A DNA stretch of 64,000 bases from Paenirhodobacter hankyongi (GTDB lineage: Bacteria > Pseudomonadota > Alphaproteobacteria > Rhodobacterales > Rhodobacteraceae), in the NCBI RefSeq assembly GCF_003664585.1, contig NZ_RCHI01000004.1, positions 1 to 64,000 on the forward strand, given 5' to 3'. A model generated the notes under the pieces. The model saw only the letters and a program-made list of their open reading frames with translations, had not been told where the DNA came from and did not search any database. The translations under genes and the position numbers were made by a program. Positions 27,937-41,829 of this stretch are shown piece by piece; positions within the stretch are counted from its first letter, which is position 1; every line of letters begins with the position of its first letter.

Positions 27937-28506
27937 ATGCAGATTGAAAAAACAGCGCTGAGCGGCGTTGTCGTGATCACCCCGCGTCGCTTCGGCGATG
28001 CTCGGGGCTGGTTTTCCGAGACCTGGAATGCGGAGCGGATGGCCGAGGTCGGCCTCGATCTTGCATTCGTGCAGGACAACCACTCCCTCTCGGCCACGAA
28101 GGGCACGCTGCGCGGGCTGCACTATCAGCGCCCCCCGCATGCCCAGGACAAGCTGGTGCGCTGCACCCGCGGCGAGATCTTCGACGTGGCCGTCGACATC
28201 CGCAAGGGCAGCCCGACCTATGGCAAATGGGTGGGCGAGGTGCTGAGCGCCGAGAACGGCCGCCAGCTGCTGATCCCGAAGGGCTTCCTGCACGGTTTCG
28301 TCACCCTGACCGAGGATTGTGAAGTGCAGTACAAGTGCACCGACGTCTACGCCCCCGACTGTGACGGCGGCATCCGCTGGAACGATCCGACGATCGGCAT
28401 CGACTGGGGCCTTGGCGACACCGCACCGGTGCTTTCGGCCAAGGACGAGGTCGCGCCGCTGCTGGCCGACTTTGACAGCCCCTTCACCTGGGAGAGTGCA
28501 GAATGA
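27937..28506 (+). CDS. rfbC: dTDP-4-dehydrorhamnose 3,5-epimerase
   Basis: A 189-residue cupin enzyme, the third step from dTDP-glucose to dTDP-L-rhamnose. It has [27 protein letters not shown] (the catalytic His is in LHYQ), [17 protein letters not shown] and KGFLHGF. The order rfbC-B-D-A follows with four-base overlaps. It starts at ATG 27937. Confidence 0.96.
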
Positions 28507-29552
28507 AACTGCTTGTGACCGGCGGTGCCGGCTTCATCGGGTCCGCCGTGGTGCGGCTTGCCGTCGCGCGTGGCCATGAAGTGGTCAACGTCGATGCGCT
28601 GACCTATGCCGCCTGCCTCGACAACGTGGCCTCGGTGGCGCAAAGCCCGCTTTATGCCTTCGAGCAGGCCGACATCCGCGACCGCGCCGCCCTTGACCGG
28701 GTGTTCGCCAAACATCGTCCCGATGCGGTGATGCACCTTGCGGCGGAAAGCCATGTCGACCGCTCGATCGACGGGCCGGGCGACTTCATCGAGACGAACG
28801 TGACCGGCACCTTCAACATGCTGGAAGCGGCTCGGAAATACTGGACCGAGGCGGGCCGCCCCGAGACCTTCCGCTTCCACCACATCTCGACCGACGAGGT
28901 CTTTGGCTCGCTGCCCAAGGATCCGTCGATCAAGTTCACCGAGGACACGCCCTACGATCCGCGCAGCCCCTATTCGGCCTCGAAGGCCTCGTCCGATCAT
29001 CTGGTGCGGGCCTGGCACGAGACCTATGGCCTGCCGGTGGTGCTGACCAACTGCTCGAACAACTACGGCCCGTTCCACTTCCCGGAAAAACTGGTGCCGG
29101 TGATCATCCTCAACGCCCTCGCGGGCAAGGCGCTGCCGATCTATGGCGACGGCTCGAACATCCGCGACTGGCTGTTCGTCGAGGATCACGCCGACGCGCT
29201 GCTTCTGGTGGTGGAAAAGGGCGAGCTTGGCCGCAGCTACAACATCGGCGGCGAGAACGAACGCACCAATCTCGAACTGGTGCGGACGCTCTGCGCCATT
29301 CTCGACGAGAAGCGGCCGAAGGCGCAGGGCAGCTATGCCGACCAGATCACCTTCGTCACCGACCGCCCGGGCCATGACGCGCGCTATGCGATCGACCCGA
29401 CGCGGATCCGCACCGAGCTCGGCTGGCGCCCTTCGGTCACCGTCGAGGAAGGCCTTGCGCGCACCGTGCAATGGTATCTCGACAACGAGCCGTGGTGGCG
29501 CGCGCTGCAGGGCCGCAAGGGCGTCGGCGAACGCCTGGGGGTCAAGGCATGA
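28503..29552 (+). CDS. rfbB: dTDP-glucose 4,6-dehydratase
   Basis: A 349-residue extended SDR, the second step of dTDP-rhamnose synthesis. It has TGGAGFIGS at the N-terminus, [22 protein letters not shown] (active-site Asp-Glu after Thr) and the catalytic [22 protein letters not shown] follows. The ATGA overlap with rfbC couples their translation. Confidence 0.97.
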
Positions 29553-31376: not shown

Positions 31377-34300
31377 ATGTCCGAATTGCCCGCCGACGTC
31401 CGGGAGAACATCCCCGAGTATTACGACCTTGTCGCAAGCAGCGGCTATTTCGATGCGCCCTGGTATCTGAAGCGCTACCCAGATGTCGCCGCGACCGGGC
31501 TGGACCCGCTGGTGCATTATCTGCGGATCGGTGCGCTGCTGCAGCGCAATCCGTCGCCTCTGTTCGACACGGCCTTCTACGTGCGGCAACGCGGCGACGA
31601 TCTGCCCGCGGGAGTGCCGCCGCTTGTCGACTTCCTGACCCGTGGCCGTGCCCGGGGCTGGCGAGCGCGGGAAAAGCAGGGCCGGGCGGCGCTGGTGGTG
31701 CATGTGTTCCACCTCGACGTGCTGGCCGATCTGACCGGCTATGCCGCGAATTTCCCTGCCGGTGCCGACCGGTTCGTGACCTGCCCGGACAGCTTCGGCG
31801 AGGCCGAGCTTGCCCGGATCGCCAAGGCCCTGCCGGGGGCGCGGATCGTGCAGGTGCCGAATGCCGGCCAGGACGTGGGCGCGATGCTGGCGCTTGACGC
31901 CAAGGTCGACCTGACGCGCTATGACCTGATCTGCAAGATGCACAGCAAGAAGGGCGCGAAGGAGCCCGCGCGCTGGCGCCACGCGCTGCTGCGCGGCATC
32001 CTCGGCTCGCGCGCCCAGGTCGAGCAGATCCTCGAGGCTTTCGAACGCGATCCGCGCCTGACGCTGGTGGGGGCGCGGCAGCTCTACCTGCACGGGCCGA
32101 CCTACATGTGGCAGAACGCCGAGACGCTCGGCAAGATGTTCTCCGGGCTGATCGGCGATTTTGATTACATGACGCGGGACTGGGGCTTCATCGGCGGCAC
32201 CTGCTTCTGGATCCGCGGCGATGCCTTCGCCGAGATCCGAGACGCCGTCGCCCCGGTCGAGTTCAAGCCGGCGGCCTATACCGATGACGGCACCGTCGCG
32301 CACAGCGTCGAGCGCCTGTTCGGCATGATCGCGGCCCTGCGCGGCGGCTCGGTGCTGCTGTGCGACGTGAGCACCCCCGAAGAGATGGAGATCGTGCACG
32401 GCGGCTTCCCGCGCAACGGCTCGCGCGAGCGGGTGATGATCTCGGATCTGCTGCGCAAGATCGACTTCCCGGTCGAGCTGGCGCGCAAGTGGACGCCGCG
32501 CGGTGCGATCAACGGCAGCGGCCCCACCTTCGTGCGCGGCTGGCTGGCGCTGGTCGGTGATCCGCAGCCCCGCCGCGGCTATCTGCAGATCGAGGGCGAG
32601 CGGCTGCCCTTCGTCGCCGGCAACTTCCGCGCCGACCTCAAGCAGCATGGCGTCAACGAGGGCTGGCACGCGTTTCAGGTCTCGGTCCCGGGCTCGCTGT
32701 GCGATGGCAAGCCGCATGAGGTGGTGCTGTTCGACGAGGCGACCGGGATCGAGCTTGGCCGCCACAAGTGCAGCTGGGCGAAACCGAAGCGCAACTATTG
32801 GGACTTCCAGGGCTTCCTGAAGTCGTCGATGACCGAGCCCGAGGTGATGACCCCCTTCGTCGAAGAGGACAAGCGCGCCTTCGCGGTGATGGAGAACATC
32901 GCCGACCGCATGGCGGGCAAGGGCCTTGCCGCAGAGTCGCGGCCGCTTGTGTCGGTCGTGATGCCGATGTTCAACCGCGCCGGCATCGTCGGCGAGGCGA
33001 TCGCCTCGGTGCTTGCGCAGACCTATCCGAGCTTCGAGCTGATCGTGGTCGACGATGGCAGCAGCGACGACAGCGTGGCGACGGTGCGCGGCTTTGACGA
33101 TCCGCGCATCCGGCTGATCGAACTGGGCGAGAACCAGGGCGTCACGGTGGCGCGCAACACCGCGCTGCGCGCCGCGCAGGGCGAGATCATCGCCTATCTC
33201 GACAGCGACAACACCTGGGATGACCGCTTCCTTGCGGCCCATGTGGGCGCGCTGCTCGAGCTGCCGGATGCCGACATGATCTATTCCGGCGTGCTGCTCT
33301 ACAGCGGCCAAGCGACCGAGCCCTATGCGATCCGCTATGGCCACCTGCACCGGGCGCTGCTCGAGAACAAGAACTACATCGACAACAACATCATCGTCCA
33401 TCGCCGCGCCTTCCTCGACCGGCTGGGCGGGTTCGATGAGGCCCTGCGCCGCTATGTCGACTGGGATCTGATCCTGCGCGCGACCGAGCTCGGGCGGGTC
33501 TATTCGGTGCCGATGCTGCTGTGCCATTACTACTACAGCCGCACCGAGAACGCGATCACCGACAACCCGACCCATGTCGCCCATCTCGACGTGCTGCGCG
33601 AGAACCTCGCGGCGCGGCAGGAGGCGCATCTTGCGCAGCTCGACACCGCCGATCTGGTCCGCCCGGTCAGCATCATCGTGCCGAACTGGCAATCGCTCGA
33701 GGACATTCGGGACTGCATCGAGGCGCTGCACCGGCGCGACTGGAAGGGGATGCTCGACATCATCGTGGTCGACAATGACTCGACCGAGGAGGTGCGGGCC
33801 TATCTGCGCGCCGAGCACGAGGCCGGGCGCATCCGTTTCGAGCCGCTCGACGGCAATTACGGCTTCACCTATGCGGTCAATATCGGCATCGCACTGGCCC
33901 GGCCCGAGTCGGACGTGATCTTGCTCAACAACGACGCGATCGCCCAGCCCGGCGCGGTGCAGGCGCTGCAACGCGCTTGCCTCGGCAATCCGCGCGCCGG
34001 CATGACCGTGCCGCGCCAGATCCTGCCCGCCGGCACCAAGACGCTGCGCACCCATGTGCCCTTCGCGCGCGAGACGAACGATTGCGACGTGAACATCTCG
34101 GCCCATCACCGCAACGTGGCGACTGTGCCGGTGTTCCATGACGGCGGCGAGCTCGAGCTGAACTATGCCGCCTTCTTCGCGGTCTACATCCGGCGCGAGC
34201 TTCTGGACGAGATCGGGCCGCTCGATGCGGAATACGGGCGCCATTACCGCTCGGACCGGGTCTATTCCGACATGATGCGCAACCTGACCGAGTACCGCAT

Positions 34301-34472
34301 GTTCTATGTCCCGGACTCGCATTTCATCCACAAGCTGCAGAAGGCGACGGACCACCTGCGCGACGTGGGCGAGAAGGACAAGAGCTTCGAGCTGATGTTC
34401 AAGCGCAACCAGTGGGATGCCGAGACCGCGGCGCGGCTGAACTTCCGCTCGCCGCCCTGGGACGTGTTCTGA
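31377..34472 (+). CDS. Trimodular glycosyltransferase: RgpF-like domain plus two GT2 domains
   Basis: A 1031-residue protein. Residues ~24-52 hold a YFDAPWYLKRYPDV / DPLVHYLRIGA module. Residues ~105-375 form a rhamnan-synthesis RgpF-like domain (NAGQDVGAMLAL, DLICKMHSKKG, GGTCFWIRGDA). From ~522 a GT2 domain begins (SVVMPMFNRAG, VDDGSSDDS, AYLDSDNTWDD). From ~762 a second GT2 begins (SIIVPNWQS, IVVDNDSTEE, ILLNNDAIAQPG). The fusion could add successive sugars, probably including rhamnose given the adjacent rfb genes. It is cytoplasmic, with no membrane segment seen. Confidence 0.88.
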   Translation: MSELPADVRENIPEYYDLVASSGYFDAPWYLKRYPDVAATGLDPLVHYLRIGALLQRNPSPLFDTAFYVRQRGDDLPAGVPPLVDFLTRGRARGWRAREKQGRAALVVHVFHLDVLADLTGYAANFPAGADRFVTCPDSFGEAELARIAKALPGARIVQVPNAGQDVGAMLALDAKVDLTRYDLICKMHSKKGAKEPARWRHALLRGILGSRAQVEQILEAFERDPRLTLVGARQLYLHGPTYMWQNAETLGKMFSGLIGDFDYMTRDWGFIGGTCFWIRGDAFAEIRDAVAPVEFKPAAYTDDGTVAHSVERLFGMIAALRGGSVLLCDVSTPEEMEIVHGGFPRNGSRERVMISDLLRKIDFPVELARKWTPRGAINGSGPTFVRGWLALVGDPQPRRGYLQIEGERLPFVAGNFRADLKQHGVNEGWHAFQVSVPGSLCDGKPHEVVLFDEATGIELGRHKCSWAKPKRNYWDFQGFLKSSMTEPEVMTPFVEEDKRAFAVMENIADRMAGKGLAAESRPLVSVVMPMFNRAGIVGEAIASVLAQTYPSFELIVVDDGSSDDSVATVRGFDDPRIRLIELGENQGVTVARNTALRAAQGEIIAYLDSDNTWDDRFLAAHVGALLELPDADMIYSGVLLYSGQATEPYAIRYGHLHRALLENKNYIDNNIIVHRRAFLDRLGGFDEALRRYVDWDLILRATELGRVYSVPMLLCHYYYSRTENAITDNPTHVAHLDVLRENLAARQEAHLAQLDTADLVRPVSIIVPNWQSLEDIRDCIEALHRRDWKGMLDIIVVDNDSTEEVRAYLRAEHEAGRIRFEPLDGNYGFTYAVNIGIALARPESDVILLNNDAIAQPGAVQALQRACLGNPRAGMTVPRQILPAGTKTLRTHVPFARETNDCDVNISAHHRNVATVPVFHDGGELELNYAAFFAVYIRRELLDEIGPLDAEYGRHYRSDRVYSDMMRNLTEYRMFYVPDSHFIHKLQKATDHLRDVGEKDKSFELMFKRNQWDAETAARLNFRSPPWDVF

Positions 34473-35857: not shown

Positions 35858-37210
35858 ATGACACATACCGAGCTTCAGGACTGCCGCACCGTGTGCATCT
35901 CAGCGCCCGAGGAGGAGGTCCTGAATGCCTGTCGCGAGATGGGGGTGCGGGGCTACCTGATCGATGGCGAGACCGGTCTGGTGCTGATGACCTCGATCGC
36001 GGAGGCACAAAGGGTCGTGGCGCGGTTTGGCGTGCGCGCCGTCGAGGGGCTGTCTGCGGTACAGCTCAGGGAGCTGCCGCCCGCCATCTCCCGGCTGTCG
36101 CGCAAGACCTCGACGAGCCTGCGCGGGGCGATCGACGGCTTCGACGGCAAGAGCGCGATCGGCGGCTGGGTGCATCCGGATCTGGCGCCGGATCGGCGGA
36201 TCCGGGTCTTTCGCGGCGAGACGCAGATCGCCGAGGTGACGGCGGATCTCTTCCGACCAGATCTGTTCGAGGCGGGCATCGGCGACGGGATTGCGGGGTT
36301 CTCTTGCCGGCTGCCCGGCCTTGCCGGGCAGGGCGGTGACATCGAGATCCGCACGATCGGCGGGGATGTCCTGGCCCGCTGGGCCGCTCCTGCGCCGGCC
36401 CCGGAGGCCGCCGCTGCCGCGCCGGCCCGTGTCGCGACGCGGCTCGGGGCCGGGGAAGTGCCCGGCCCCCCCGGGGGGGGGGGGCATTACTGCGTCGATC
36501 TGGGCGGGTTCTCTCTCGACTATTATCTCGTCCCGGGGCGGAGCGGACGGATGGTTGTGTTCTCGCCGGGGTTCCTCGATGCCAAGCGCTTTCCCTATCC
36601 CTATTTCCAGCGCATGAAATGGGCGCAGCGGCTGGAGGACACCTGCGTCTTCCTCACCGATCCGTCTTTGCTGCTGGGCGACACCCAGATCGGCTGGTTC
36701 ATCGGCAACCGGACGACCCATTATCTGCCGGTGGTCGCGCGCTATGTCGAAACGCTGGCGGCGTCGCTTGGGACGGCGCCCACCGATCTGCTGTTCTTCG
36801 GCTCGAGCGCGGGCGGGTTTTCCTCGATCGGGATGGCGGCACATGTGCGGGGGGCGCGGGCGCTTGCGGTGAACCCGCAGACCAATGCGCTGAAGCTGCA
36901 CAGCCCGCTGCAGCTGGCCAACACGCTGCGGTGCTGTCTGGGGGTGTCGTCGCTCGTCGATGCCTATCGCGACTACCGGCCGCGGCTGATCCTGAGCGAG
37001 ATGTTCCGGCAGCTTGGTCACGTGCCGCGCATGACGATCTGGCAGAACTTCTACGATCACTACCACGTCGAGCATCACCTGCTGCCGTTCCTGCAGGAGA
37101 TCAAGGATCTGTGGCCGACCGAAGAGCTGGATGTGCGTCTTGCCGCGCGCCCGGACGAGGGGCACGATCCGCCCGATCTGCAGGTCATCGAGCCGCTGTT
37201 CTGGCCCTAG
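35858..37210 (+). CDS. Alpha/beta-hydrolase-like protein with a poly-G tract in its linker
   Basis: A 450-residue protein. An N-terminal ~190-residue region, partly beta-rich, contains GAIDGFDGKSAIGGWVHPD. An Ala/Pro/Gly linker follows, encoded across a C7G12 tract (36466-36484). The C-terminal domain (~225-450) has the nucleophile-elbow motif FGSSAGGF and a late DEGHDPP with a candidate catalytic His. An esterase or deacetylase acting on the polysaccharide is possible, but this is inference. GTG 35801 would add 19 residues; ATG 35858 is preferred. One-base changes in the G tract would remove the hydrolase domain. Confidence 0.7.
   Translation: MTHTELQDCRTVCISAPEEEVLNACREMGVRGYLIDGETGLVLMTSIAEAQRVVARFGVRAVEGLSAVQLRELPPAISRLSRKTSTSLRGAIDGFDGKSAIGGWVHPDLAPDRRIRVFRGETQIAEVTADLFRPDLFEAGIGDGIAGFSCRLPGLAGQGGDIEIRTIGGDVLARWAAPAPAPEAAAAAPARVATRLGAGEVPGPPGGGGHYCVDLGGFSLDYYLVPGRSGRMVVFSPGFLDAKRFPYPYFQRMKWAQRLEDTCVFLTDPSLLLGDTQIGWFIGNRTTHYLPVVARYVETLAASLGTAPTDLLFFGSSAGGFSSIGMAAHVRGARALAVNPQTNALKLHSPLQLANTLRCCLGVSSLVDAYRDYRPRLILSEMFRQLGHVPRMTIWQNFYDHYHVEHHLLPFLQEIKDLWPTEELDVRLAARPDEGHDPPDLQVIEPLFWP
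36466..36484 (+). repeat. C7G12 homopolymer tract inside a coding region
   Basis: Seven C (36466-36472) followed directly by twelve G (36473-36484), encoding part of the PGPPGGGG linker. It is self-complementary over 14 bases. The tract length keeps the frame open as sequenced. Tracts like this are slippage-prone, and in other bacteria they drive phase variation. Confidence 0.9.
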
Positions 37211-37258: not shown

Positions 37259-38200
37259 TCAGTGGGTGTGATTGCCGATCTGCTCGCGCACCCAGTCCCA
37301 GCTTTCGGCGATCCCCTCGTCGAGGGTGATCTTCGGCGACCAGCCCAGATCGGTGCGGGCCCGGGTGATGTCGAGGACGACGCGCGGCACGTCGAAGCTG
37401 CGCCCCGGCTTGTAGATCGGAACGACGGGTGCCCCGCCGGTGGCCTGAACGGTGCGGTCGATGCCCCGCACCACGTCGTTGACCGAGGCCCCCTCGCCAT
37501 AGCCGGCGTTGTAGCAGCCGCTGGCGTCGGAGTTCAGCGCCGCAAGGCACAGGTCGGCAAGGTCGCGGACATGGATGAAGTCGCGCACGATGCTGCCATC
37601 GCCCCAGACCTCGACCTGTTCCCCCTTGGCGATGCGCCAAAGATGGGTGCCGATGATGCCCTGGATGCCGGTGTGGCCCTGGCGCGGCCCATAGGGGTTC
37701 GAGGCCCGCAGGACCACATGCTGGAGCCCGTGCAGGTGGTGCTCCATGTGCAGGTAATTCTCGATCGCCACCTTGACGATGCCATAGGAGCTGATCGGTT
37801 GCAGCGGATGCGTCTCGGCCACCGGGTCGGTGCGGGGGATGCCGTAGACCGTGCCGCCCGACGACAGGTAGATCATCTTGCGCACGCCGGCGGCCCGCAT
37901 CATCTCGAGCAGGCGCACCGTTGCCACCAGGTTGCCGGTGATGTCGGCTTCGGGGTCGAGGTTCGAGGTCGAGGGAACCGTGGTGCTGACGAGATGGATA
38001 ATGGCATCCACTCCGCTCATCGCCTCGTAGATCTGGGCGGTATCGGCCAGATCGCCCATCACGTATTCCACCCCGGGGAGCGGCGTGCGGAACAGCTCTG
38101 GCCGGCGGTCATAGACGCGAACCTGCAGGCCGTCTGCAAGCAGCCGGTCGGCAACGTGCGAGCCGATGAAGCCGCATCCTCCGATCAAAAGTACTTTCAA
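37259..38200 (-). CDS. NAD-dependent epimerase (UDP-glucose 4-epimerase-like)
   Basis: A 313-residue extended SDR with IGGCGFIGSH, an SSGGTVYG segment, the catalytic YGIVK, and RASNPYGPRQG typical of nucleotide-sugar 4-epimerases. The start is TTG 38200 behind GGAGATCCCC. It may supply UDP-galactose (for Glf) or UDP-galacturonate (from the Ugd product); the sequence does not decide. A TTGACA on the minus strand at 38268-38263 could belong to its promoter. Confidence 0.85.
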   Translation of the reverse strand: MKVLLIGGCGFIGSHVADRLLADGLQVRVYDRRPELFRTPLPGVEYVMGDLADTAQIYEAMSGVDAIIHLVSTTVPSTSNLDPEADITGNLVATVRLLEMMRAAGVRKMIYLSSGGTVYGIPRTDPVAETHPLQPISSYGIVKVAIENYLHMEHHLHGLQHVVLRASNPYGPRQGHTGIQGIIGTHLWRIAKGEQVEVWGDGSIVRDFIHVRDLADLCLAALNSDASGCYNAGYGEGASVNDVVRGIDRTVQATGGAPVVPIYKPGRSFDVPRVVLDITRARTDLGWSPKITLDEGIAESWDWVREQIGNHTH

Positions 38201-38785: not shown

Positions 38786-39274
38786 ATGCTGATCATAACG
38801 ACCCCTACCTTTGCATCCGCCCCATCCGCGGGGCTGGAAGCCGTCTGGCCAGGTCCCAAGGCTCTGGTGATTTTTCCGGATTCCGGTCTGACGTCGCAAC
38901 GCATCCGGCAGCTGGAGGACGAATTCTTCACCTTCGAATTCCTTCAGCATCCGGGCTGCGTTTCCGGAATCTTTCCGATTCTGGCGCGGTTCATGGCCAC
39001 GCAGTTCCGTGAATCCGACACGCCGCTGCTCTATCTCAACCGGCCCATGACGCCGCAGGAGTGTGAGGGCAGCCTGCTCCCCGAAGATCTGGGACTGTAT
39101 GATTTTACCTGCGAGTTTTCAGACGATGGCACGCTGTCCATGCTGCGCCTCGGAGAGATGATCGCCACCAGCCCGCTGTTCCTCGCACTGATGCGGGTGG
39201 TCGGGGAAAAACCGGTCGACGATGCCCTCTTCGTCGATCTGCTGCGCGAGACATTTGCCTGGAGCCTGAAATGA
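38786..39274 (+). CDS. Protein of unknown function upstream of an RgpF-fused glycosyltransferase
   Basis: A 162-residue protein that I do not recognise. It starts MLIITTPTFASAPSAG at ATG 38786, with only a weak ribosome site. Its stop overlaps the next gene's start (ATGA at 39271), so the two are translationally coupled. It is acidic, has no signal peptide or membrane segment, and contains LPEDLGLYDFTCEFSDDGTL in the middle. Coupling suggests a small partner of the large GT (inference). Confidence 0.65.
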   Translation: MLIITTPTFASAPSAGLEAVWPGPKALVIFPDSGLTSQRIRQLEDEFFTFEFLQHPGCVSGIFPILARFMATQFRESDTPLLYLNRPMTPQECEGSLLPEDLGLYDFTCEFSDDGTLSMLRLGEMIATSPLFLALMRVVGEKPVDDALFVDLLRETFAWSLK

Positions 39275-41829
39275 CGTCTCTCGACCTTCTCTGGCAGAAA
39301 TATGCCGCGATCGTCGGTGTGCTGGCGGACCGGCCCGATTTTCGTTTCGACCCGGACCATTATGGCGCCATCTTCCCGGACCTGGCGGGGGACCCGGCCG
39401 GTCTGCTGCGTCATTACGAGGCCGAGGGGCGGCCGGCTGGCCATGCGCCGACATTCTACCAGAAGTTGCAGGGTGACGGGTACAAGGTCGACGACGTGCT
39501 CACCGCTCTGGTTGCCGATCCGCACCTTGCTGCGGCGATCCGGGACGGCGTGCCCGGGGCCTGCCATCTCGCCTGCGAGCTGATCCATCTCGGCGCTCCC
39601 GTCGACGCGATGGTGTCGGACTTCTCGATGAGCGGCTATCTCGACATGCATCCCGACATCAAGAACGCCGGGATGGATCCGCTGCTGCATTACCTGCTCT
39701 ATGGTGCGAACGAGAAGCGCCGCATCCTCGCCGATCTGCGCAAGTCGCAGATCCGCGGGCGCTGCAGCTATTCCGCCGATCGCCCGACCTGCATGATCGT
39801 GGTGCACGAGCTGTCGCGCACCGGTGCCCCGATCGTCGGGCTGGATCTTGCCCGCGAAGCGGCGCGCACTCACAACGTCATCGTGGCGGCCCTGCGCGAC
39901 GGCCCTTTGCTGGATGAAATCCGCGACCATGCCTGCGAGGTGCTGATCACCACGCAGCCGCAGCGCGACTTCGACTTCTACCGCGGAGAGATCTTCCAGG
40001 AGATCGACTTCGCGATCACCAACTCGGTCGAGGCCTTCCCGTTCATCCCGCTGCTGGTCGCGCGGGAGATCCCGTTCCTCGCCTATGTGCATGAATACGC
40101 GGACTATACCTTCCCGGCCTACAAATCGACCTTCACCGGGCTCTTCACCGACCTGCTGGTGTTTTCCTCGGAGCATGTTCGCGACAGCTGGGATGGCCGG
40201 CTGCAGGACATCGAATTCGACATGGAGCGCGACTGCACCATCGTGCCGCAGCGCGACTTCGCGGTGGGCGGTGTCGATGCGGAGGGCTTTGCTGAGGCGC
40301 GCGCGCGGCTGTCGCAGCTGATCGGGCGCGATCTGACCGATGTGCGGCTGATCTGTGGCGCCGGGCATCTGCAGTGGCGCAAGGGAACCGACATCTTCGT
40401 CATGGCGGCCCAGATCTGCCGCCGCGACCCGGACACGGTGTTCGTCTGGATCGGTGACGGGCTGAACCCCGAGGACATGGGCTTCGGCGCCTGGATGAGC
40501 TACCATCTGCGCCAGATCGGGGCCGGGGATCCGGACGGCAACCTGTTCTTCCTGCCGGCCGGGCCGGCCTATCCCGACGTGCTGGCGGCCTCGGATGCGA
40601 TGTTCGTCTCCTCACGGCTCGACCCGCTGCCGAACGTGGTGTTCGACGCGCTCGATGCCGGCTGCCGGATCGTGCAGTTCGAGGGCGCTTCCGGCTTCGG
40701 CGACAGCCACTATCGCGGCTCCGAGCATTTCATCTCGGTCGAATACGGCAACCCGGACGCCGCAGCGGCCGCGATCCTGGCGCTGCCGCGCAAGGAGCCC
40801 TCGCCCGGTTCGAGCGGCAGCGCGGCGCGTCCGAAGCTGTTCGCGCGGCTGCGGGGCGAGCTGTTCCGCCGGCTGGAGGAGCAGCGCCACTTCGTCGTCG
40901 GCAAGTCGCAGATCGACGTGCCGATGCTGTTCACGAGCCGTGACGAGGATGCCGAGCTGCGCATCCGCGAGCGGGAAAAGACCATGCGCTATCGGCGCCG
41001 GCTGCTGTGGCGCGACCTGAACGAGGTCGAGGAAACGCTGGCGGCCTCCGACAACTGGATCCATCGCAACCTGCGGCTCGCCCCCTATGGGGAAATCCCG
41101 GCCGCGGAGGCGAAGGTGCCCGACTTCTCCATGCACATCCATGCCTTCTATACCGACGATCTGCTGGATGACCTGCGCAGCCACCAGGCCTATCACCTGG
41201 CGCGCAGGATCGTGGTGACCACCGACACGCCGAAGAAGGGCGACGAGATCTGCGAGATCATGGGGCTCGAAGGTCTTTCGCCCGAGATCGTGCTGGTGAA
41301 GAACCGGGGCCGCGACATCCTGCCCTTCATGGAGCTGTTCTATCCCGAGGGCGCGGCCGGAGAGGACGAGATCTGGTGTCACCTGCATCAGAAGAAATCC
41401 GTCAGCACCACGGATGCAGGGGATATCTGGCGCCAGTTCCTGATGCGCATCCTGCTTGGCTCCGAGAGCGCGGTCTCCGATGCCATCACCCGGCTTTCCG
41501 ACCCGAAGGTGGGGCTGGTCGCACCGTTCGAACCCTACTTCATCCCGTGGAACGCCTCGCGCGGGCTGCTGGAGAAGTTCGCCGATCGTCTGCCGGGGCC
41601 GATGCCGAAGAACCCGCTGCTGTTCCCGGTCGGCAACATGTTCTGGACCCGCCGCTCGGTGGTGCTTGCGATGAACGACATGTTCGGTCCAAGCTATCCT
41701 TGGCCGAACGAGCCGATCGCGAATGACGGCACCGAGTTCCACCTGATCGAGCGGCTGTGGCCCGCGATGAGCACCCATCTGGGGCTCGACTCGGTCTTCG
41801 TGCACAAACTCGACCAGAGAAGGGTCTGA
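39271..41829 (+). CDS. GT4-type glycosyltransferase fused to a C-terminal RgpF-like domain
   Basis: An 852-residue protein. Residues ~27-55 and ~125-152 carry copies of the 'YxxxHPDIxxxGxDPLLHYLLYG' module also seen in the 1031-residue GT. From ~165 a GT-B (group 1/GT4) domain runs to ~510 (HELSRTGAPIVGLDLAREA, GHLQWRKGTDIFV, ASDAMFVSSRLDPLPNV). From ~620 an RgpF-like domain follows (MHIHAFYTDDL, KNRGRDILPFMELF, CHLHQKKS, GNMFWTRRS). The RgpF unit is C-terminal here but N-terminal in the other protein. Confidence 0.87.
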   Translation: MTSLDLLWQKYAAIVGVLADRPDFRFDPDHYGAIFPDLAGDPAGLLRHYEAEGRPAGHAPTFYQKLQGDGYKVDDVLTALVADPHLAAAIRDGVPGACHLACELIHLGAPVDAMVSDFSMSGYLDMHPDIKNAGMDPLLHYLLYGANEKRRILADLRKSQIRGRCSYSADRPTCMIVVHELSRTGAPIVGLDLAREAARTHNVIVAALRDGPLLDEIRDHACEVLITTQPQRDFDFYRGEIFQEIDFAITNSVEAFPFIPLLVAREIPFLAYVHEYADYTFPAYKSTFTGLFTDLLVFSSEHVRDSWDGRLQDIEFDMERDCTIVPQRDFAVGGVDAEGFAEARARLSQLIGRDLTDVRLICGAGHLQWRKGTDIFVMAAQICRRDPDTVFVWIGDGLNPEDMGFGAWMSYHLRQIGAGDPDGNLFFLPAGPAYPDVLAASDAMFVSSRLDPLPNVVFDALDAGCRIVQFEGASGFGDSHYRGSEHFISVEYGNPDAAAAAILALPRKEPSPGSSGSAARPKLFARLRGELFRRLEEQRHFVVGKSQIDVPMLFTSRDEDAELRIREREKTMRYRRRLLWRDLNEVEETLAASDNWIHRNLRLAPYGEIPAAEAKVPDFSMHIHAFYTDDLLDDLRSHQAYHLARRIVVTTDTPKKGDEICEIMGLEGLSPEIVLVKNRGRDILPFMELFYPEGAAGEDEIWCHLHQKKSVSTTDAGDIWRQFLMRILLGSESAVSDAITRLSDPKVGLVAPFEPYFIPWNASRGLLEKFADRLPGPMPKNPLLFPVGNMFWTRRSVVLAMNDMFGPSYPWPNEPIANDGTEFHLIERLWPAMSTHLGLDSVFVHKLDQRRV

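Follow-up and report, generated by a model that had tools for sequence, protein, structure and literature searches.

Our analyses indicate that the run of seven C and twelve G residues (C7G12) at positions 36,466–36,484 of the window (viz. the whole 64,000-nucleotide stretch of Paenirhodobacter hankyongi DNA that was analysed) lies in frame in the middle of a gene for a two-domain protein. The reading that we favour, with moderate confidence, is that this tract is an incidental, probably slippery and lineage-specific run in the gene of a surface-polysaccharide O-acetyltransferase, and not an evolved phase-variation locus. According to this reading, the C-terminal domain of the protein would act like meningococcal CsaC, by means of a Ser-Asp-His triad that is extended by Gln and His, and C7G12 would be a lineage-specific run, made of GGG and CCC codons, in a flexible linker. 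The tract would probably slip more than ordinary DNA, at a rate that we infer, and a culture would then hold some cells in which the frame is shifted and the product has no catalytic activity. Selection for switching at the tract is, we infer, most likely absent.

The gene is located on the forward strand at positions 35,861–37,210 and encodes 449 amino acids (aa) counted from 35,861. Its reading frame is free of stop codons from 35,801, where it opens at a GTG, to 37,210, and the ATG at 35,858 is the likely start codon as judged from the relatives of the protein. The N-terminal region of the protein (35,861–36,394, forward strand) contains a GxIDGxxGK...GW...RPDLxEAGxGDGxxGF segment, and repeats resembling this segment, by eye, are present in a glycosyltransferase adjoining the Vibrio relative that is described below. 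This region is followed on the same strand by an Ala/Pro/Gly-rich linker (36,395–36,484), which contains the tract and whose length varies among orthologues, and by the catalytic domain (36,485–37,207), which has an alpha/beta-hydrolase fold and is predicted to be a CsaC-like polysaccharide O-acetyltransferase. Within the linker, the C7 run (36,466–36,472, forward strand) provides the last base of a Gly codon and two Pro codons, and the G12 run (36,473–36,484, forward strand) is read as four in-frame GGG (Gly) codons; the reading across the tract is GGC CCC CCC GGG GGG GGG GGG CAT, viz. G-P-P-G-G-G-G-H. The G12 run divides the gene between its small N-terminal domain and its catalytic domain and leaves it intact. 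All four of the Gly codons in the tract are GGG, a codon that accounts for only 30% of the Gly codons in neighbouring genes, where GGC is commoner, and hence the run is not demanded by the protein.

Computed translations of the gene at different tract lengths illustrate the consequences of slippage. G12 gives the complete protein of 449 codons, the loss of one base (G11) leads to a stop after 251 codons, and the gain of one base (G13) yields a wrong-frame product of 489 codons; the catalytic domain is lost in both of these off frames, and the frame is restored at G9 and G15. The first-pass annotation of this DNA had proposed that a C7G12 tract at these positions lies in the linker of the gene and that slippage by one base would delete the catalytic domain. 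The window sequence agrees with the tract to the base, the linker is an inter-domain one that tolerates changes in length, and the predicted loss of the catalytic domain is borne out by the G11 and G13 translations. In its position, the in-frame G12 also displays a characteristic by which contingency loci are recognised, viz. a long repeat placed so that slippage can toggle expression. Runs of 7 bases give rise to up to 3.8e-5 indels per CFU in mycobacteria (PMC11898584), and tracts of at least 7 bases phase-vary in meningococcal pilin glycosylation genes, with pglI among the genes listed as phase-variable (PMC5445459). Since long G runs are known to slip in other bacteria, occasional off cells are, by analogy, likely to be present in a culture of this organism, although the mycobacterial rates may not transfer here because genes for both MutS and MutL are present in this genome.

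Comparison with two full-length orthologues, from Sinirhodobacter ferrireducens of the same genus (68% identity) and Salipiger mangrovisoli (54% identity), provides information on the origin of the tract. The tract is absent at the same place in both of them: the linker sequence PGPPGGGGH of the window protein corresponds to PGAEAAGH in S. ferrireducens and PEPDESGH in S. mangrovisoli. Because both orthologues encode the protein as one continuous frame, the two-domain form is ancestral, and the sequences are most simply accounted for if the tract arose newly in this lineage. Relatives of the protein at E ≤ 1e-20 were found in 5 of the 395 genomes of the family (the window's own genome counted), and a search of a plasmid collection identified one distant relative from Citrobacter and no others. 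The catalytic domain is modular, and it occurs as a stand-alone protein in a Vibrio and in another relative. At a further locus (L091; G090 C11:57015), a CsaC-like domain follows a glycosyltransferase-like part in a single open frame, and this frame represents a possible glycosyltransferase-acetyltransferase fusion.

Pattern searches of the genome (3.80 Mb, ~67% GC) show that G12 is its longest run of G or C, whereas no other G or C run within the window exceeds 7 bases. In total, 14 G or C runs of at least 9 bases are present in the genome (nine of length 9, three of 10, one of 11 and one of 12). Markov models of orders 1–4 predict 0.005–0.03 runs of at least 12 bases per 64 kb window and 0.3–1.6 such runs per genome. 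Extrapolation of the geometric tail of run lengths in this genome itself leads to a similar figure of ~0.3 per genome, and a Markov model of order 5, which rests on few counts, gives 0.009 per genome. On the basis of the order 1–4 values, G12 is exceptional for a window chosen beforehand, yet it is near expectation for the longest run of such a genome. The earlier description of the tract as exceptional even in GC-rich DNA thus fits the single window better than the genome as a whole. For C7G7 with at most one mismatch, 0.10 occurrences are expected in shuffles of the window, and no second copy of C7G7 was found in a search of this genome.

Runs of at least 12 bases are present in 16 of the 18 genomes of the genus, with several of these counts inflated by contig-end runs of 20–98 bases that are probably assembly artefacts, and G runs of exactly 12 bases are found in 24 of 80 family genomes. 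A codon-position test, which is simple and rough and takes in only some of the family tracts, places nearly all of the other 12-base tracts either at the edges of genes or where clear coding sequence is lacking. The window tract has a coding signal in one frame on both of its sides, which is a rare case among the loci examined, and this mid-gene position is the sole feature that lifts the tract above a tail event. In several related drafts (L063, L064, L065, L078, L081, and L087), G or C runs of 19–98 bases, some of which consist of a G run followed by a C run, are located at or beside contig ends, and these are probably artefacts of assembly or sequencing; G runs of 20–98 bases were set aside because many of them are at contig ends or beside N gaps.

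The 13 other runs of at least 9 bases in this genome are mostly intergenic, at gene edges or uncertain in their placement, and no enrichment of long runs in surface genes was found over these 13. The clear coding cases among them are in helicases and in one RTX/esterase-like protein. They comprise an in-frame G10 within a DEAD-box helicase gene (L011:1501-1510; G000 C10:32423), a coding G9 in a SNF2-type helicase, and a G9, also in frame, in a protein that combines RTX repeats with a domain resembling sialic-acid esterases (L026:1501-1509; G000 C51:192617). Two other G10 runs of the genome (L005, G000 C1:202137, and L015, G000 C23:221253) open a GGGGGGGGGGCGCTGCCCCCCC inverted repeat, which looks like a recurrent terminator-like element, and one of the two comes directly after a possible stop codon. 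Among the surface-glycan genes of the window, no second comparable tract was found.

The assignment of the catalytic domain was examined by means of AlphaFold models from 4 sequences (mean pLDDT 64 for the whole protein and 72 for the domain alone). In fold comparisons, four CsaC entries rank 1–4 with both models (Z 17.6–17.2 for the whole-protein model and 17.1–16.7 for the domain model), and an Asp2-type Gap123 complex ranks fifth (Z 16.4 and 15.9, respectively). The margin below CsaC is small, with generic esterases at Z ~15–16, or about 1–2 Z lower, and the Asp2-type complex ~1 lower. A profile of 7 sequences matches SacC/CsaC at E 0.0013, and the profile without a TALE-prone helix has CsaC as its first match at E 0.0064. 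Matches of the full profile to TALE repeats were rejected, as they are sums of sub-threshold repeats over this one helix and vanish without it. Pfam and NCBIfam searches of the whole window protein produced no match; against Pfam Asp2 the Vibrio relative scores 21.1 bits, which is below the curated cut-off of 28, so that neither protein has an Asp2 match above the cut-off. A plain phmmer search of PDB sequences with the catalytic domain as query found nothing, and four-row profiles found nothing beyond chance matches to ubiquitin hydrolases.

Alignment to CsaC with HMMER pairs Ser316 (forward-strand codon at 36,806–36,808), the predicted nucleophile in a GSSAGG motif, with S114 of CsaC, Gln340 (36,878–36,880), the Gln extension of the triad, with Q138, and Asp399 and His402 (codons 399–402, 37,055–37,066) with D198 and H201. 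These four residues are invariant in all seven relatives. The spacing from Ser to Gln is 24 residues in both the window protein and CsaC, and the Asp and His are likewise three residues apart in both. An invariant GH is present at 434–435 where H228 of CsaC is expected, outside the aligned stretch of the profile, and His435 (37,163–37,165) is, by its position, the predicted His of the triad. For R148 of CsaC, which places the acceptor, the corresponding position has no conserved Arg, in a loop whose alignment is uncertain. The Gln arm was described by the authors of the CsaC study as apparently unique to this enzyme and was seen by them in uncharacterised proteins, and they raised the question whether the Gln-extended triad marks transferases (PMC7501274). 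Asp2, in turn, is a demonstrated glycan O-acetyltransferase (PMC5578698).

The neighbourhood of the gene includes proteins with glycosyltransferase family 2 and RgpF-like parts (31,377–34,472, forward strand) and glycosyltransferase group 1 and RgpF-like parts (39,271–41,829, forward strand), a GDP-mannose 4,6-dehydratase-family protein (28,503–29,552, forward strand) and an NAD-dependent sugar epimerase/dehydratase (37,259–38,200, reverse strand). Taken together, the fold rank, the profile match, the invariant active-site residues and these glycan neighbours suggest that the gene most likely encodes a surface-polysaccharide O-acetyltransferase, with both its activity and its surface-glycan substrate being predicted. 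The first-pass term "hydrolase-like" is sharpened by the fold and profile results to a CsaC-like polysaccharide O-acetyltransferase, and the proposal of a polysaccharide-modifying gene gains support from the glycan-synthesis neighbours and the CsaC-like fold. The gene would add members to the CsaC-type family with a Gln-extended triad.

Errors in sequencing most often concern the length of homopolymers, and the long G runs at the contig ends of several related drafts look artefactual; the tract could accordingly be an artefact of sequencing or assembly, the real run being shorter or of a different length. This we consider quite improbable, as the tract lies inside its contig (at 36 kb of 288 kb) and G12 keeps the 449-codon frame homologous to the two orthologues across the tract, where two-thirds of the possible lengths would break it. 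It is very improbable that the C7G7 arm is a structural element, viz. a hairpin or a stall site for the polymerase or ribosome, that tunes expression. C7G7 is a perfect palindrome, and the self-complementarity that had been remarked upon earlier does lead to C7-G7 pairing in the predicted single-strand DNA fold. However, this fold is only slightly better than those of shuffled sequences (z -1.5, with 16 of 200 shuffles folding equally well), both orthologues are without C7G7, and an Rfam search found no match.

A true contingency locus, in which a selected G12 switch would turn glycan O-acetylation on at G9, G12, and G15 and off otherwise, is in our view rather unlikely, but a number of observations speak for it. 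The tract is the genome's longest run and it is situated mid-gene, in a length-tolerant linker 5' of the entire catalytic domain, a placement rare in the family for 12-base runs; the enzyme is lost in both off frames, and the codons are all GGG where GGC is commoner. The gene class is also suitable, as phase variation acts classically on glycan O-acetyltransferases and glycosyltransferases, and since the tractless orthologues number only two and are both from other species, their sequences are still compatible with a switch in this species. On the other hand, neither orthologue has the tract, the surface-glycan genes of the window hold no second one like it, MutS and MutL are present, the length of the run is inside the genome-wide tail, and other coding runs are found in helicases too and are not clustered in surface genes. 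We also regard it as unlikely that the newly arisen G12 is an early-stage contingency locus, switching surface-polysaccharide acetylation and not yet present in sister species. Of the phase-variation switch that was originally suggested, the toggling of the frame and the class of the gene therefore stand, whereas selection is not supported, given the lack of a tract in the orthologues, the expected tail and MutS/MutL, and an incidental run remains our preferred explanation.

If the tract were a true switch, glycan O-acetylation would be subject to poly-G phase variation in a free-living alphaproteobacterium, with possible consequences for resistance to phages and for the formation of biofilms. 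Searches of the open-access literature brought up no relevant work on phase variation by homopolymers in relatives of Rhodobacter or on poly-G-switched glycan O-acetylation in free-living alphaproteobacteria. With the poly-G and poly-C contingency loci of Neisseria and Campylobacter (viz. pgl, lgt and similar), the window tract shares a homopolymer of at least 7 bases in a surface-glycan gene and a frame that is switched by one-base slips; it differs from them in that it is not conserved and that such runs in its genome are not concentrated in surface-glycan genes. The Asp2/Gap2 GlcNAc O-acetyltransferase of the accessory Sec system is likewise a glycan O-acetyltransferase of the alpha/beta-hydrolase fold type, but it belongs to different bacteria and a different context, and no accessory Sec genes were identified near the window gene. 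The best fold match to the window domain is CsaC (SacC, MynC), the capsule O-acetyltransferase of Neisseria meningitidis serogroup A, to which its identity is about 14–15%, and from which the window protein differs in its additional N-terminal domain and linker and in that no clear counterpart of R148 was recognised in the uncertainly aligned loop.
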